A DNA stretch of 40,911 bases from a bacterium (GTDB lineage: Bacteria; Patescibacteriota; Gracilibacteria; JAUYGZ01). Where the stretch lies: positions 1-40,911 of the forward strand of contig JAUYGZ010000015.1 of the NCBI GenBank assembly GCA_030690415.1. Reading direction: 5' to 3'. The notes below the pieces were generated by a model. It did no database searches, was not told the DNA's origin, and worked only from the letters and a program-made list of their open reading frames with translations. The position numbers and the translations under genes are program-made. This document shows positions 6,188 to 33,538 of the stretch, piece after piece (position 1 is the first letter of the stretch; every line of letters starts with the position of its first letter).

Positions 6188-7279
6188 ATGAAAAAAATAT
6201 TGTTCGGTATCATCTTTGCGTCTGTGTTGGTTCACAACAGTGTAGGGAACGCTTATGCTGATGCACCTCAAATACTGTTTGACCTGGACTGCACGAGCAC
6301 AAACAAGGACCTGAAGATAGGGTTTGAGTCCGATCCAGCGACACCAGGAAATGGTGCGGAGATTATTGCCTTCAGATTCGTTTTTGATTTGAATCCAGGT
6401 GGAACAACAACAGTAAATGATCTGCTGCAAGCACAAGTGAATCTGAACCCAACATATACGAATGCTTTCGAAGCAAATAAAGAAACCTCGTCCTCTGGAA
6501 GTACCGTGAGTATCACCATAGAAGGAGGATTCACACAGGAAATGGGATACCGAAGTATCGAAGATTTGATGATCCTCTCCGGCATTCAAGAAAAAGCCTA
6601 CACGATTGTGGTGAGAGAAGGTGATCTCATCCCAAAGGGTTCAGTCAATGATGTATACGTGGATACCCCACCCCAGCAATTCCAGGCAGATCCAGGCAGT
6701 TGTCAAACAGGATCCGGAACGACAACAACAGGATCTGCACCAACGATGGGTATAATTCTCGTTGCGGACAAGCCCTCTGCTACGGCAGGCGAGAATGTTG
6801 CCGTCACAGCTACCATCTCTGGAAGAGTTAATGAATCAATTAACTGGTCTCAAACCAGTGGGAGCGCAATTCAACCACAGATCGCAAACCAGGTCTTAGC
6901 AAATGGAGACACTGAGAGTGTGCTGACCTTTAGTATGCCAACAGGTTCGACTGATATTCTCCTCAAGCTCACCGTTGGCGAAATTTCAGAAAACATAAGC
7001 ATTCAGTCTGTCGTAGCGGAAGAGACACACGAGGCGGCGACTGAGACGGACACCACAGGTCAAACTCTGGAAGAGCGACTGGCAGAGCGGCAAGCAGAAC
7101 AGGCCGCTGCAGCTGCTGCCGCAGCTAGTCAAACAACAACAACTGGAAGCGTCGCTACTCAAACGGGCACACTTTCAGAATCAGGACCAGCGGAAAACTC
7201 TCTGCTTATCCTCATCGCAGTTATCGTGCTCTGGATTGGAAAGCATGCTGGGAAAAAGCTAAAAACAATGAAGGCTTAG
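6188..7279 (+). CDS. Secreted protein with cohesin-like N-terminal region and C-terminal sorting-like anchor
   Basis: A signal peptide spans about residues 1-25 (MKKILFGIIFASVLV... NAYADA). The following 150 residues (AFRFVFDLNPGG and VSITIEGGF) look like a cohesin-type beta domain, and a second Ig-like region follows around 190-275 (ADKPSATAGENVAVTATISG). An alanine-, glutamate- and threonine-rich linker then leads to LSESGPAEN, a hydrophobic helix and a basic end (KHAGKKLKTMKA), the layout of a sortase- or exosortase-type sorting signal with a TGP/SGP core rather than LPxTG. It has a strong own promoter. The stop TAG shares TTAG with the convergent jag stop. Function is unknown; a surface protein is inferred. 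Confidence 0.75.
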   Translation: MKKILFGIIFASVLVHNSVGNAYADAPQILFDLDCTSTNKDLKIGFESDPATPGNGAEIIAFRFVFDLNPGGTTTVNDLLQAQVNLNPTYTNAFEANKETSSSGSTVSITIEGGFTQEMGYRSIEDLMILSGIQEKAYTIVVREGDLIPKGSVNDVYVDTPPQQFQADPGSCQTGSGTTTTGSAPTMGIILVADKPSATAGENVAVTATISGRVNESINWSQTSGSAIQPQIANQVLANGDTESVLTFSMPTGSTDILLKLTVGEISENISIQSVVAEETHEAATETDTTGQTLEERLAERQAEQAAAAAAAASQTTTTGSVATQTGTLSESGPAENSLLILIAVIVLWIGKHAGKKLKTMKA

Positions 7280-7800
7280 ATATCCAGGTTAGCATATATA
7301 TCGGAGCTCTCATGAGACTCTTCGGGCTCGTCTGAGTGATTTGCGGCTGTGATACAGACTGATCGATCATTTCCCATTCCGCGACTCTCAGTGGAAAGAG
7401 TCGGATACTTTTCGCAGACATAGAGATGAACAATTCGTCTGAAAAAAGGTGACATAGGGGGTAAAAGCGCACTTCTCCCGGTCATCACAACCTCAGATGC
7501 TCTCTGATCAGCCATATTAAGAACATTTGACTCTTGCCTGAGACGATACGAGTCGACATCAACCTTGATATGTTCACCCTCCTCAGTGATATCCTTGTTT
7601 CGAAAAATGTTCTTGATCAGATACTGAAGGGCAGAGAGCACATCACCGTTTCGACCAATGAGCGATACGGCATCCTGGGCGCTCTGGATATTGATGTACC
7701 ACTCCCCTTCACCTCGGGATTCAACATCGAGTCCGTCTACGGTAAATTGAGCAGTCTCTAAGAGGGTAAGTATGAGTGTTTTTGCCTCTTCGGTCTTCAT
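7276..7800 (-). CDS. jag: Jag/KhpB RNA-binding protein (KH and R3H domains)
   Basis: The 174-residue protein contains a KH domain with the GxxG loop in LIGRNGDVLSALQYLI (47-62) and an R3H domain whose RxxxH motif is at R121-H125 (FFRRIVHLYVCEKYP). The usual Jag_N domain is absent. Homologues bind many transcripts and affect division and sRNA function; in Gram-positives the gene is co-transcribed with the YidC homologue, as here, where it is the last gene of rpmH-rnpA-yidC-jag. The C-terminus is acidic and serine-rich. Confidence 0.92.
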   Translation of the reverse strand: MKTEEAKTLILTLLETAQFTVDGLDVESRGEGEWYINIQSAQDAVSLIGRNGDVLSALQYLIKNIFRNKDITEEGEHIKVDVDSYRLRQESNVLNMADQRASEVVMTGRSALLPPMSPFFRRIVHLYVCEKYPTLSTESRGMGNDRSVCITAANHSDEPEESHESSDIYANLDI

Positions 7801-7824
7801 ACGAAAATGATAAGAATAATCAAA

Positions 7825-9114
7825 CTAAACCTCCTTATTCACGAAGTACTGTTGTACGATCGCGAAGAGTGTTGAAACGGTCAGATAAAGACCAACAGCA
7901 GAAGGTAGTGTAGCTGTCATGAAACCAATCATTAAGGGCATGAAATACGTCATCGTTTTGTTCATGGTCGCCATGGTATTGGGGAGAGTTGTGACTTCCT
8001 TTTTTCTCACATCAAGCGGCTTCCCATCTTCATCGAGTTCGACAACTTCTGTGCCATGGGATGGCTTATGAACAGGTGTCATTTTGGCAAAAGAAAGCTT
8101 CAGCTGGAAGAACTGGAGCAGTCCGACAACAATCGGTAACCATGTTGCGTTTATCTTGCCCAGATCCAATATTCCAAAGAAATTACTATCCACCATGGAG
8201 AGATCTATAGTCTTCTGGAAATCATAAAACATGTGGCCCAGGTAAGGAGAAAATCCAACCTGCACGACATAAAACAAAGCGATCAAAATCGGAAGTTGAA
8301 TAAGGAGAGGAAGGCATCCACCGGCAGGATTGACCTTATGAGTCTTCCACAGTGCGAGGGTCTCACGGGATATTTTTTCCTGATTACCGGCATATTTTTT
8401 CTTGATAGCATCCAGCTCAGGCTGAAGCTTTGACATCGCACGTTGAGACTTCAGAGCTCTTCGACTTGGACCAAGGAGAAGAAATCGGATGACAAGAGTG
8501 AGGGCAATAATCGCCAGTCCAAAATTATAACCGGGCATAATACTCGTCAAAAACCACATAAAGTTGAAAATCGGGCGGAAAAAGAGGTTGTGGGTGACAC
8601 TGGAAAAAAATCCCCGCTCTACCATCTCAAACTCTGTGTTGAAGGACTTTTCAACTCCATCAATGGGAACGTCTAAAATGAGTCGGTATCGACCCAGTGA
8701 AGAAAAAAGCTCATCTTTCCAGGGAGAATAATCGATCGTAATATCAGATTGTGCGGGAAACTCAAGACGGGCTGGCTGTTCAAACAGATGAGCACTGGGA
8801 TCCGGCAATGCGTCCATACTAAGGCAACTCAGATAAAGTCCTTGCATTGAGTGGATTGGTGTCCAGATTCCGTTTGAATAACGTTCGACACTGAGTGGTT
8901 CCGATGGACATGCACTCTCAATAGTCACCGCGTGTTCAAGATGATTAGAGACAGTAAGTAATACTGGATCACCAACATAATACGATCCGTCAGAAGTCTC
9001 TAAGACAAAATCCTCAAAATGACTCTCTTCTGGGGCCTCATGCCCCTGAAAAGTCTGAAGTGCTAGAGTCACTCCGATTAAGATCAGAATCCAAGTGAAA
9101 AATTTTTTTGACAT
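7825..9114 (-). CDS. yidC: Membrane protein insertase YidC with an unusual Ig-like extracytoplasmic domain
   Basis: YidC inserts membrane proteins alone or with SecYEG. The insertase core starts near residue 180: TM2 with groove arginine R210 (LTLVIRFLLLGPSRR), the cytoplasmic QPELDAIKKKY hairpin, NPAGGCLPLLIQLPILIALFY, and two later helices. A first membrane segment at 5-20 is followed by about 130 residues (36-165) that do not resemble the proteobacterial P1 beta-supersandwich; YYVGDPVLLTVSNHLEHAVTI and VERYSNGIWTPI look like a BsuPI/Ig-like beta fold. The cytoplasmic loop after residue 345 contains a charged insertion (VVELDEDGKPLDVRKKEV). The gene starts 3 nt after rnpA. Confidence 0.95.
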   Translation of the reverse strand: MSKKFFTWILILIGVTLALQTFQGHEAPEESHFEDFVLETSDGSYYVGDPVLLTVSNHLEHAVTIESACPSEPLSVERYSNGIWTPIHSMQGLYLSCLSMDALPDPSAHLFEQPARLEFPAQSDITIDYSPWKDELFSSLGRYRLILDVPIDGVEKSFNTEFEMVERGFFSSVTHNLFFRPIFNFMWFLTSIMPGYNFGLAIIALTLVIRFLLLGPSRRALKSQRAMSKLQPELDAIKKKYAGNQEKISRETLALWKTHKVNPAGGCLPLLIQLPILIALFYVVQVGFSPYLGHMFYDFQKTIDLSMVDSNFFGILDLGKINATWLPIVVGLLQFFQLKLSFAKMTPVHKPSHGTEVVELDEDGKPLDVRKKEVTTLPNTMATMNKTMTYFMPLMIGFMTATLPSAVGLYLTVSTLFAIVQQYFVNKEV

Positions 9115-9117
9115 AAT

Positions 9118-9459
9118 CTACTTCAAATGAGACTTACTCATGAGCTCAAGAAAAGCATTCCTAAACTCAGTGCGTTGAGCATGCAGTGCTGGAGTCCTGA
9201 CCAAGATAGCAACTCGTAGGCCATCTGTCCAACGGGAAAAGTGAACTCTGATCAGCTCATTCAAAATCCTCCTCATTTTATTTCGGTTTACCGCGTGAGG
9301 CAAAATTTTTCGAGGGATGACAACAGCAAATTGGGAATACGAACGCTCACTTTTCTTCCAGTTGATTCGAAAATACCGATTTACAACTGTTTCAGCTCTC
9401 CGATCAAAGAGCTCTGAGACCTCTGAAGCACTCAGACTGCGATAATTCTTTTTTAACAT
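9118..9459 (-). CDS. rnpA: Ribonuclease P protein component
   Basis: Protein subunit that helps the RNase P RNA bind pre-tRNA and remove 5' leaders. The 113-residue protein has the family signature HAVNRNKMRRILNELIR (the RNR motif) in its second half and a basic FAVVIPRKI strand before it. It sits 32 bp downstream of rpmH and 3 bp upstream of yidC in the conserved order. No rnpB RNA gene was recognised in the window. Confidence 0.94.
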   Translation of the reverse strand: MLKKNYRSLSASEVSELFDRRAETVVNRYFRINWKKSERSYSQFAVVIPRKILPHAVNRNKMRRILNELIRVHFSRWTDGLRVAILVRTPALHAQRTEFRNAFLELMSKSHLK

Positions 9460-9491
9460 CGGATGGAATCAAAAAAGCGCCATTCGGATGC

Positions 9492-9638
9492 CTATTTCTG
9501 ATACACACTCTTCACAGAAAGCCGTTTACGCCCTTGTGTCCTTCGGCGAGACAAGACTTGTCGTCCTTTCTTCGTCGCCATTCGAGAGCGAAATCCGTGT
9601 TTGTGAGCTCTTTTACGCTTACTGAGTTTACCGAGCAT
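9492..9638 (-). CDS. rpmH: 50S ribosomal protein L34
   Basis: Translating the minus strand from the ATG at 9638 gives 48 residues, [20 protein letters not shown] then [20 protein letters not shown] and SVKSVYQK, which is a clear L34: the [14 protein letters not shown] and [17 protein letters not shown] segments are diagnostic. It precedes rnpA as in most bacteria. The N-terminus has an extra LGKLS-like start in place of the common MKRTYQPS form. dnaA is not upstream; the histone gene is. Confidence 0.95.
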
Positions 9639-9703: not shown

Positions 9704-9737
9704 TAAAAAAAGCCCATCGATTTTCATCGAGGGGCTT
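9704..9737 (-). terminator. Intrinsic terminator of the histone-fold gene
   Basis: On the minus strand the stem AAGCCCCTCGAT/ATCGATGGGCTT (one mismatch, loop GAAA) is followed directly by a run of seven T. It lies 16 bp past the stop of the histone-fold gene and is the clearest rho-independent terminator in the window. It also isolates that gene from rpmH. Confidence 0.88.
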
Positions 9738-9752
9738 AAAATGGAGCAAACA

Positions 9753-10118
9753 TTACTTGCACATGACATCAGTACCACGTACGGTTTTTCGTCCATTAGC
9801 CTTTGCACGCTTGCATCCCTGCTCGGCATACCACTTAACCAGAGCGTTCAAACCTCCAACAAAATCACCAGCAGTGTTACAACCCTTTTTTTTGTTAAAT
9901 TCCTTCACCTTTGACCCGACAACATAGGCATTGTCACTTGTCTCCATGCAAGCATCAGTGCCACGAACAGTCTTCCGACCGTTAGCCTTCGCACGCTTAC
10001 AACTTTCATCCATGTGCCATTCGACAACACTACTCAAGACATCAATTAAATCTCCAGCGGTATTGCAACCAGCTTTTTTGATGAGTTCCTTAACCTTGGA
10101 ACCTACGACGTAGCTCAT
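9753..10118 (-). CDS. Tandem histone-fold (doublet) protein
   Basis: The 121-residue protein consists of two histone-like repeats with a 62-residue period: residues 3-55 and 65-117. Each reads YVVGSKVKE, a short alpha1, CNTAGD, a long central helix, then RAKANGRKTVRGTD, matching the alpha2-L2 signature of archaeal and bacterial histones (AGRKT..D in HMf-type proteins). The third helix is very short in repeat 1 and missing in repeat 2, as in minimal bacterial histones. Paired cysteines C18/C80 and C40/C102 are conserved. At DNA level the 16-codon CKRAKANGRKTVRGTD block differs at nine positions between repeats, all third codon positions, indicating purifying selection. A private promoter and strong terminator suggest an independent, possibly abundant product. 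DNA binding is inferred from the family. Confidence 0.85.
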   Translation of the reverse strand: MSYVVGSKVKELIKKAGCNTAGDLIDVLSSVVEWHMDESCKRAKANGRKTVRGTDACMETSDNAYVVGSKVKEFNKKKGCNTAGDFVGGLNALVKWYAEQGCKRAKANGRKTVRGTDVMCK

Positions 10119-10150: not shown

Positions 10151-10178
10151 ATTGTAGCTCCTAATGCCCTAAAGGCAA
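10151..10178 (-). promoter_or_regulatory. Promoter of the histone-fold gene
   Basis: On the minus strand TTGCCT at 10178-10173 and TACAAT at 10156-10151 are separated by 16 bp. The predicted leader is about 26 nt and almost pure A and T, without a Shine-Dalgarno sequence. Confidence 0.55.
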
Positions 10179-10179
10179 G

Positions 10180-10860
10180 TCATTTCCCGAGTTCACCTGT
10201 TTTAGGTCCTTTTCTCCAGCGAAACAATCTGGGGTTATGATCTAAAAACTTCGTAATAAATCGACCAAACACTGGGAAGTGCACCTTTTTAAGGTAAAAG
10301 TATCCGAGCACAGCTACAAAAAGAGCTCCTATGGCGTTCACAATCATATCCCACATGGTATCTTGAAGACTGTTGTCCTGCATTTTCAGATTCGTAAACT
10401 GATCGAGTACAAATTCAAAAATTTCCCAAATTGCTCCCAAAGCAACAGAAAAGGCAAAAGCGAAAAAGACAGAAAGTATCGGACTTGCGCTGAGTCGTAC
10501 CCGCTGCACGGAATTCATGATATAAATCAGCAAAAACCCAACAATACCCAGGAGGACTCCCGAGGCAGTATGGAGCATGATATCCCACCACCAAAAAGTA
10601 TGGTAGTACTCCAGGACCGAACCCAAAAAAACTGAAGCATAAACAAACACAGCGATAAAGAGCTCCAATTCAATTGGCAAAAAAATTCGAAAGTTCCTCT
10701 TCAAAAAAGCTGGGGTGTAGTTAAGAAAAAGAACCATCAGCGTTAAAAAGGAATTGAACCACTGAAGCCGCACAGTCGAAACCACAAATGCGACAACAAT
10801 GCTCGCATTCAAAAGATTGAAGATTACCAGCTGCACTTTATCCGCTCGATCCATAGCCAT
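10180..10860 (-). CDS. DUF2238 family polytopic membrane protein (YjdF-like)
   Basis: The 226-residue protein has about six hydrophobic helices. The family signature is clear: WWWDIMLHTASGVLLGIVGF in the middle and GAIWEIFEFVLDQ followed by MQDNSLQDTMWDMIVNAIGA towards the end. These conserved H, E and D residues lie at helix ends, suggesting a buried polar or metal site, but no function is established for the family. The C-terminus is basic and cytoplasmic (RWRKGPKTGELGK). The ATG at 10854 is an alternative start. It stands just upstream of the histone gene, on the same strand. Confidence 0.75.
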   Translation of the reverse strand: MAMDRADKVQLVIFNLLNASIVVAFVVSTVRLQWFNSFLTLMVLFLNYTPAFLKRNFRIFLPIELELFIAVFVYASVFLGSVLEYYHTFWWWDIMLHTASGVLLGIVGFLLIYIMNSVQRVRLSASPILSVFFAFAFSVALGAIWEIFEFVLDQFTNLKMQDNSLQDTMWDMIVNAIGALFVAVLGYFYLKKVHFPVFGRFITKFLDHNPRLFRWRKGPKTGELGK

Positions 10861-31369: not shown

Positions 31370-33538
31370 CTAGAAGGTGAAAATCCAGGAAAAGAGCTGA
31401 GAGAAACTAAAGGGTTCTTTGAGGTCATAATCCTCTTTCACATACCAATTGGGGAGATCCGTAAAGCGATCTGAGTGACTGCTGAGCTTCCCCAGCTGAA
31501 CATTCTTAACCGACTTCGCAACAAGGTAATAGTGTGTCGGATTGTAGAGGAAAACAGCAGGCGTGTCATGGGCAATTTCCTTTTTAAGACGATCAAGCAG
31601 TTCCTGCTTCGTTCGCTCATCGAAGGTCCTTCGAATATCAACCAGGAAATTATCAGATTCCAGACTTCTATAATTCGAAAGATTAAGCCCTGTCCCCGAT
31701 TGACTGGAGTGCCAGAATGGGAAAGCATCCAGATTGTAGCCTAAATTCTGTCCAAAGAGCAAGATATCATAATCACGATTTTTAATCTTTTCCTGAAGAT
31801 CCTGAAGAGAATAGGTCTCAATAATGACCTTCGCTCCTGCCTCCAACCACTGCTTTCGAACTAGCTCAGCCACACGAAGAAAACTCGCTGGCTCCTGTGC
31901 CGTCACCAAACGAAGAATCAGACGCTCACCATTGTCGTTAATTCGAACCTTATCCAGCTCTGCAACTTCTTCCCCACTCAACTCTGGCTGAACTTCTAAG
32001 GGAAGATCAGGTTTATCTTCCTCAGCAGGTACTGGCTCCTCCGACGGTTTTGGAGTATCGGAAACGGCTTCAGGAGTCGATGGCGGTGGGGGAAGTAAGG
32101 TTTCATCGACATATTGACTGATCGTTTGTCGATCAAAAACTATATTCCTGACGACCTGGCCAGCGCCACCCAAGGACTTCAGCTGAAGGCCATTCATTTC
32201 TACCTGCAGGCCAGCGGCATTCCCAACCGTGCGGAGCGTCAAAGCAGTCTTTGCAGAAAATTCCTTAGTCTTACCTGCACTCAAAAGGAAGGAAGTCTGA
32301 TCAACTCCATCAACAGCAAGGGAGATCCAGCTATCCTGAGACGCCGTTAAAATAAACTTCAGTTCCGTCGCGTCAGCAATGAGCTGATCAAGCTCGGGTC
32401 CACCTGTACTCTTGGGCTCTTCTTCCTGTTCTTTTCGCGACTCCACCTTGGAGGGGATATTCCACTCAGTGTCAAAAAAAGCGCCTCGGGCACGCTCAAG
32501 ACTAAATTCAATATCCAAATCGAGTTTTGACTCAAGGATCGAAGTATCCACTATCTCCACATCTCCTACCGCATCCCTGATCTCCTCTTTATCAGTCGCC
32601 AGAAGAAGAGCAAATCGAACCATACGATTATTCAAAATATCGGAATCCGTGTTCAGAAAAAGCGAACTGTACTGAGGAAGATGATACGGGAAAATATCAA
32701 AACGACTGGTGTCTCCGAAAACATCCTTGGGGTTCTTATCAGTGCTCAAACGAAAGCCGGTGAGCGTATTCTCAGCGAGTAAGAGAGAATCCTGATCATG
32801 AAATGAACGGAAAATAAGAGTCGTAATCTTCGTGTGGGTGCCATAGTACTGATCATTTCGCTGAAGGGTGACCTCATAAGTATCATTCTTAACCGTCCAG
32901 GTCGCGAATTTGTAGGGGCCAGTCCCCACAGGAGCCTGGTTAATCTCTGACTTGTCAAGATTATCGACAGGTATGAGCTCATAGAGGTGCTTAGGAAGAA
33001 GACCGATCGTCACATTCGCCAGGAAAAAGGAATATGGGTTATCGAGTTGAAACTGAACCGTCCGATCATCGATCTTTTTCACCGTCACATCCGAAAACAT
33101 CTGTCGCAAAGCGACATTGGGAAAGGCCTCATTCTGAATCACCGACTGATAAGTAAAGACCACATCGTCGGCGGAAACAGGCACCCCATTATGCCAGAAT
33201 GCGTCAGGCACAAGGGTAAAGGTATACGTCAGATTATCTTTCGACTTTTCACTGGTCGCGATATCGTCCTCGATGAGTCCGGTATGAGGATTGTAGCGGG
33301 TTAATCCACTAAAAATCACCTGACTGATATCTTTATCAACCGGGTTTCCCATGAGGAGAACGGGATTGAGAAGGAGTGGTCTGCCCACAAGACCCTCTGT
33401 ATAAATCCCCCCGTCCGCGGCAATCAGATTGGAATTATCGCGGATAAAGCGTCCATACAAATAGACACTCGTAGACACTACGATGGCCAGCAAGATCAGA
33501 ATGAGAACCTTCTCAAAAGTGGTGAATATTCGAAACAT
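31370..33538 (-). CDS. Membrane-anchored family 5 extracellular peptide-binding protein with inserted RodZ-C (DUF4115-like) domain
   Basis: An N-terminal helix (residues 10-28) without a lipobox anchors the protein. Residues 40-360 match the SBP_bac_5 fold (TYTFTLVPDAFWHNGVPVSADDVVFTYQ in two halves, PVGTGPYKF), and the fold resumes at about 535-700 (RLILRLVTAQEPASFLRVAELV, YDILLFGQNLGYNLDAFPFWHS). Between them, residues 393-472 (about 32123-32362) read like the C-terminal domain of RodZ: DSWISLAVDG, a TVGNAAGLQVEMNG segment and LGGAGQVVR. It is bordered by charged and proline-rich linkers. The 722-residue length, against about 550 usually, is explained by this insertion. No permease or ATPase genes are adjacent, so transport is not assured. 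Confidence 0.85.
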   Translation of the reverse strand: MFRIFTTFEKVLILILLAIVVSTSVYLYGRFIRDNSNLIAADGGIYTEGLVGRPLLLNPVLLMGNPVDKDISQVIFSGLTRYNPHTGLIEDDIATSEKSKDNLTYTFTLVPDAFWHNGVPVSADDVVFTYQSVIQNEAFPNVALRQMFSDVTVKKIDDRTVQFQLDNPYSFFLANVTIGLLPKHLYELIPVDNLDKSEINQAPVGTGPYKFATWTVKNDTYEVTLQRNDQYYGTHTKITTLIFRSFHDQDSLLLAENTLTGFRLSTDKNPKDVFGDTSRFDIFPYHLPQYSSLFLNTDSDILNNRMVRFALLLATDKEEIRDAVGDVEIVDTSILESKLDLDIEFSLERARGAFFDTEWNIPSKVESRKEQEEEPKSTGGPELDQLIADATELKFILTASQDSWISLAVDGVDQTSFLLSAGKTKEFSAKTALTLRTVGNAAGLQVEMNGLQLKSLGGAGQVVRNIVFDRQTISQYVDETLLPPPPSTPEAVSDTPKPSEEPVPAEEDKPDLPLEVQPELSGEEVAELDKVRINDNGERLILRLVTAQEPASFLRVAELVRKQWLEAGAKVIIETYSLQDLQEKIKNRDYDILLFGQNLGYNLDAFPFWHSSQSGTGLNLSNYRSLESDNFLVDIRRTFDERTKQELLDRLKKEIAHDTPAVFLYNPTHYYLVAKSVKNVQLGKLSSHSDRFTDLPNWYVKEDYDLKEPFSFSQLFSWIFTF

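Follow-up and report, generated by a model that had tools for sequence, protein, structure and literature searches.

Does a bacterium of the candidate phyla radiation (CPR) encode two histone folds in a single chain and, if so, what would such a protein do and where did it come from? The question is raised by a 121-aa reading frame with an ATG start at positions 9753-10118 (minus strand) of the 40,911-nucleotide stretch of DNA analysed here, called the window, which is the whole contig (C6) of its host genome. A preliminary description, made from the letters alone, had taken the frame for a tandem histone doublet in a probable CPR bacterium. The host is indeed a Patescibacteria genome from the class of Peregrinibacteria/Peribacteria, and the gene is present as a single copy in this genome (1.45 Mb, 98.8% complete). 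Its assignment was based on the open reading frame and translation (MSYVVGSKVKELIKKAGCNTAGDLIDVLSSVVEWHMDESCKRAKANGRKTVRGTDACMETSDNAYVVGSKVKEFNKKKGCNTAGDFVGGLNALVKWYAEQGCKRAKANGRKTVRGTDVMCK), PDB sequence search, AlphaFold2 and Foldseek.

Repeat architecture and fold

The two tandem repeats of 62 residues seen in the preliminary description were confirmed: the period is exactly 62 aa, and the alignment of the halves is gapless (37 identical residues over about 54-56 aligned, 69%; BLASTP 82 bits, E 2e-28). Fold 1 comprises residues 1-55 (9954-10118, minus strand; A1 profile E 4.2e-32) and fold 2 residues 63-118 (9765-9932, minus strand; E 1.1e-29), both delimited with DSSP of the model. Between the aligned domains, sequence and model leave a stretch of seven residues, 56-62, ACMETSD (9933-9953, minus strand). 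The 16-codon block CKRAKANGRKTVRGTD at 9768-9815 and 9954-10001 differs at nine sites, all of them third positions and all synonymous, exactly as had been claimed. With dS saturated and dN at 0.25 between the halves, the protein repeat is under purifying selection, also as proposed, and is no echo of the assembly. The cysteines had been counted as four in pairs; the protein contains six (18, 40, 57, 80, 102, 120). The statement that a basic tail is missing holds for the N-terminus, but the protein as a whole is nonetheless basic, with a pI of 9.5 and a charge of about +9.5.

AlphaFold2, supplied with an 11-row alignment of the window and locus proteins, returned two complete histone folds with a pLDDT of 92.5 and a pTM of 0.83. 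The model places helices at residues 6-15, 24-45 and 53-56 in fold 1 and at 68-77, 86-107 and 115-118 in fold 2, that is 10 + 22 + 4 residues per half. The layout alpha1-L1-long alpha2-L2-alpha3 that characterises the histone fold thus occurs twice, and the four-residue third helix of both halves, anticipated as nearly absent, agrees with the definition of alpha3 histones (alpha3 of 3-4 residues, shortened alpha2; Schwab 2024, PMC11390915). Foldseek with the whole chain gave the Methanopyrus double histone 1F1E as best match (E 1e-5, TM 0.65, 141 columns) and also found Marseillevirus doublets; one half superimposed on DNA-bound HLp (9qt1) with 0.6 A over 55 residues at 42% identity. Based on the 1F1E match and the pTM, the two folds of the chain are predicted to pack as a handshake pseudodimer.

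Sequence searches point in the same direction. By phmmer against the PDB the protein matches HLp (9qt0, 1.4e-7), Bd0055 (8fvx/8cmp, 1.6e-7) and HTkC (9f2c, 6e-4); HLp aligns best with half 2 and Bd0055 with half 1. Pfam yielded nothing above cut-off, the histone model reaching only E 0.031, and DUF1931 (PF09123) gave no match at E up to 10, while NCBIfam archaea_histone scored 3.8e-6, below the family cut-off. In the absence of a Pfam match above cut-off, family membership rests on the PDB phmmer matches, NCBIfam archaea_histone and the structure, and profile surveys that apply gathering thresholds may miss the gene. Sequence and fold searches alike return histones and no unrelated family; among solved structures, the protein is closest to the alpha3 histones HLp, Bd0055 and HTkC rather than to DUF1931 doublets.

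The gene is followed by the intrinsic terminator AAGCCCcTCGATgaaaATCGAtGGGCTTTTTTT at about 9704-9738 (minus strand; -18.6 kcal/mol, z -4.4), the top-ranking candidate when both strands were scanned for a hairpin plus T-run, which bears out the description of it as the best terminator in the window. The promoter that had been ascribed to the gene is weakly founded: a promoter-like TTGCCT-16-TACAAT lies at 10151-10178 (minus strand; consensus scan, 9/12 matches), but with 12 such hits in the region against 8.4 +/- 2.7 expected the candidate site is no better than chance. Directly upstream, at 10180-10860 (minus strand), there is a gene for a 226-aa membrane-protein-like product that belongs to no Pfam family. 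Elsewhere in the window, 31370-33538 (minus strand) encodes a family-5 solute-binding protein with an internal match to the RodZ C-terminal domain (residues 397-465), an unusual combination.

Ring and DNA-contact residues

In the HLp ring, contacts run from R49, S52 and N53 of one chain to F63, T61 and R55 of the chain opposite. A13, S14, K15, K17, K21, T27, G29, T56 and T57 contact DNA, and in simulations the contacts of K54 and R59 persist (PMC12701072). Both halves of the doublet keep R49, N53, R55, T61, S14, K15, K17, K21, T27, G29, T57, R59 and D62 (HLp numbering). Both also carry S52 to A, K54 to G and T56 to K, and the F63 position, after D62, is occupied by A or V. With positions 52, 54 and 63 changed, the ring interfaces of the doublet and HLp are not identical. 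Across 120 histone domains compared, N53, R55, T57 and D62 are invariant, and R49 is changed in three sequences only. Face-to-face (FtF) histones are defined by the positions R48/N52 (PMC11390915), which correspond to R49/N53 of HLp; this pair, together with RxTxxxxD, is found as RAKANGRKTVRGTD in both halves. Bacterial dimer histones lack the pair, and DUF1931 pseudodimers lack the DNA-binding signature whose RKT is present here. By the PMC11390915 criteria the doublet is, on its sequence, FtF-type and neither of the bacterial-dimer type nor a DUF1931 protein.

From these residues and the charge we infer that the doublet binds or coats DNA and shapes the nucleoid. In our preferred reading, to which we assign a probability of roughly 0.7, the gene encodes a nucleoid protein, a covalently tethered FtF alpha3 histone that was duplicated in place and whose two-chain ring bends or wraps DNA beside HU. 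The two halves would shake hands within one chain to give an obligate pseudodimer, two chains would join face to face via both ends to close a ring of four folds resembling the HLp or HTkC tetramer, and DNA would be bent or wrapped around it; tethering would free dimerisation from its dependence on protein concentration. HU is encoded in the same genome (G000:C1:37975-38244) and was found in all but one of the 60 genomes searched, so that the histone would add to HU rather than replace it. The one exception, G007 (histone locus L006; 99% complete), carries a histone singlet with HU not found; it may depend on the histone, or HU may fall into a gap of the assembly.

The altered contacts S52 and F63 would also suit a different assembly, in which the protein binds DNA only as a pseudodimer with bending similar to Bd0055/HBb, or in which folds are swapped between chains to give bridging or open chains and no closed ring. 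HBb, a close sequence relative, acts as a dimer (PMC11390915). It lacks, however, the first two of the residues R49, N53 and R55 that both halves of the doublet retain, and all tandem histone pairs characterised so far fold intramolecularly (PMC13088155), which makes this assembly unlikely. That the gene is decaying, or that its product, as in the DUF1931 doublets, has a histone fold but no affinity for DNA, is hardly credible. Non-chromatin roles do exist for some histone folds (PMC10627809) and the scores below the Pfam and NCBIfam cut-offs would fit, but the failure to match DUF1931, the conserved DNA-contact residues in both halves, the net positive charge and the purely synonymous divergence of the L2 block between the halves argue against it.

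Probable origin at a singlet locus

The tethered ring histone proposed here has a single-domain counterpart in G001, a genome of the window's family. There, a singlet (MSCVVMSKAKEK...NGRKTVRATDF) lies directly upstream of rpmH-rnpA-yidC-jag and is likewise followed, by eye, by a terminator-like hairpin and T-run. In the window the same cluster is found directly downstream of the doublet (7276-9638, minus strand; Pfam hits and synteny), which makes the two loci orthologous. Conserved genes flank the histone locus on both sides in the two genomes; the membrane-protein-like gene next to the doublet has no match at the G001 locus. Since G001 has a singlet at the same place, the doublet either replaced a singlet there or grew from it. 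Most likely it arose by internal tandem duplication of the singlet at the locus, after the split from G001; that this singlet was vertically inherited is likely, short of proof. A genome whose contig ends inside yidC (G002) was not scored as a histone loss, its absence being uninformative for this reason.

The tree introduces a complication, as it places both halves of the window protein closer to histones of the Diapherotrites type than to the singlets of the class (branch support 98/90). The gene could accordingly have been transferred from a Diapherotrites-like DPANN archaeon, replacing the resident histone, with the duplication before or after the move. In addition to the position of both halves on the Diapherotrites side of this branch, half 1 has 66% identity to the archaeal L037/L039, with GCNTAGD and VVGSK in common. 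Against this, the gene sits exactly at the locus of the G001 singlet, the protein begins with MSYVV as the class's singlets do, and the AU test does not reject a tree in which the window halves stay with the class (p 0.39). We consider such a transfer rather unlikely, though to be taken seriously; it concerns the origin and does not conflict with the proposed mechanism. An alignment of 56 columns offers little resolution, and the tests of archaeal transfer and of a shared doublet origin are therefore only partly conclusive.

A search for homologues in Peregrinibacteria-like genomes, as had been suggested, showed that 72 of 353 genomes of the class match the histone profile; one family (f6) accounts for 68 of these. 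Nearly all f6 histones read are singlets starting with MSYVVAS. Several f6 genomes (G207-G209, G226-G228, G190-G191) contain a far more divergent histone, with about 50 instead of about 105 bits (L136, L138), that falls elsewhere in the tree. Four doublets were observed in the class, namely that of the window, which occurs in one genome only, and those of G045, G212 and G243 from f6; G186 was rejected as a second doublet, its two hits being pieces at contig ends. A single-sequence scan of genome contigs found no relatives; these came from the profile scan. The histone search of viral contigs yielded one singlet only. Other Patescibacteria families (f36, f43, f73; L134, L135, L137, L139-L145) possess FtF singlets resembling HLp, which in the tree form a group with the Leptospira protein (96/98). 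At L049 3986-4357 a third kind of alpha3 doublet was observed. The MAG in question (Guaymas) bears the label Euryarchaeota, and the two halves of the doublet are placed close to histones of Bdellovibrionota/Myxococcota, possibly through bin contamination or transfer.

The f6 doublets (L120 6939-7295, L118 3943-4299, L119 5782-6138) are FtF-type proteins of 119 aa, and the second AlphaFold2 model reached a pLDDT of 93.5. In all three the downstream neighbour is the gene that also adjoins the G214 singlet; with this singlet their halves group (support 100/96, 99/91), and two of the three lie near an upstream gene common to other singlet genomes. A single ancestral fusion behind all doublets of the class would be consistent with the occurrence of both lineages in that class, and the AU test, on few columns, does not reject a single clade comprising all doublet halves (p 0.105). 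Such a fusion requires, however, first halves together and second halves together across the two lineages, and both groupings are rejected (p 0.044 and p 0.009). Moreover, each doublet locus holds a singlet in a relative, and the linkers are unlike (ACMETSDN vs LAFTPGK). We therefore regard one fusion as very unlikely and two separate duplications as the best reading, with gene conversion as the escape.

The first halves of the three f6 doublets carry R49 to A and are the only such domains among the 120, whereas the window's doublet keeps R49 in both halves. After tethering, one copy of the ring residue may have become dispensable, or its removal may give a one-sided particle. As a tentative generalisation, to which we would give somewhat less than even odds, FtF singlets of this class became tethered doublets in place at least twice, and one lineage then lost the ring arginine in one half, giving an asymmetric, heterotypic bacterial particle that would parallel the proposed tethered origin of the obligate histone heterodimers of eukaryotes.

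Comparison with known histones

Histone doublets are reported to have arisen several times in archaea and bacteria (PMC10919886), and the preliminary view of known bacterial histones as singlets and, in some cases, pseudodimers agrees with the literature (PMC10627809, PMC12701072). Those bacterial doublets for which detailed descriptions exist are DUF1931 proteins, which lack DNA-binding residues (PMC12701072, PMC13088155); these, with the nucleosomal doublets of archaea and viruses, are the nearest published classes. Bacterial FtF histones have been reported mainly from Spirochaetota, Planctomycetota, Bdellovibrionota and Myxococcota (PMC11390915). CPR bacteria are not named among these main carriers, yet 68 genomes of a single family match the profile. 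Open-access text searches found no paper on histones in Patescibacteria or Peregrinibacteria, and the open-access literature yielded no FtF-type doublet from a CPR bacterium, though one may sit unremarked in the supplementary tables of surveys. Doublets and FtF histones are thus each already published; their combination in a CPR bacterium is new as far as we found. A relative carries a singlet at the orthologous locus, so the transition from a one-fold to a tethered histone is caught here, and a separate family of bacteria seems to have made this step independently. As the same class offers singlets, a symmetric doublet and asymmetric doublets, this step of histone evolution becomes directly testable.

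HLp (Leptospira perolatii, PDB 9QT0-9QT2) resembles the doublet in the alpha3 fold, in R49/N53/R55 and in the DNA-contact residues, but has only one domain and an N-terminal tail, whereas the window protein joins two domains in one tailless chain. HTkC (9F2C) and the archaeal FtF histones, above all the Diapherotrites singlets, share the tailless alpha3 form and the RxxxNxRxT signature, and differ in being archaeal singlets. Bd0055/HBb from Bdellovibrio has a truncated alpha3, the RKTV loop and a similar phmmer score, but is a singlet in which R and N of the FtF interface are missing. The DUF1931 pseudodimers (Thermus 1WWI, Aquifex 1R4V) are likewise bacterial proteins with two histone folds in tandem; they are longer (148 residues in 1WWI). 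The tandem pseudodimer arrangement is shared as well by Methanopyrus 1F1E, HstA of halophiles and the Marseillevirus doublets; their folds are of the nucleosomal type, and the identity of the window protein to 1F1E and the viral proteins is 14-18%. Closest in kind are the f6 doublets, FtF-type and predicted with equal confidence, which differ from the window's by a separate duplication, another locus and the loss of R49 from half 1.
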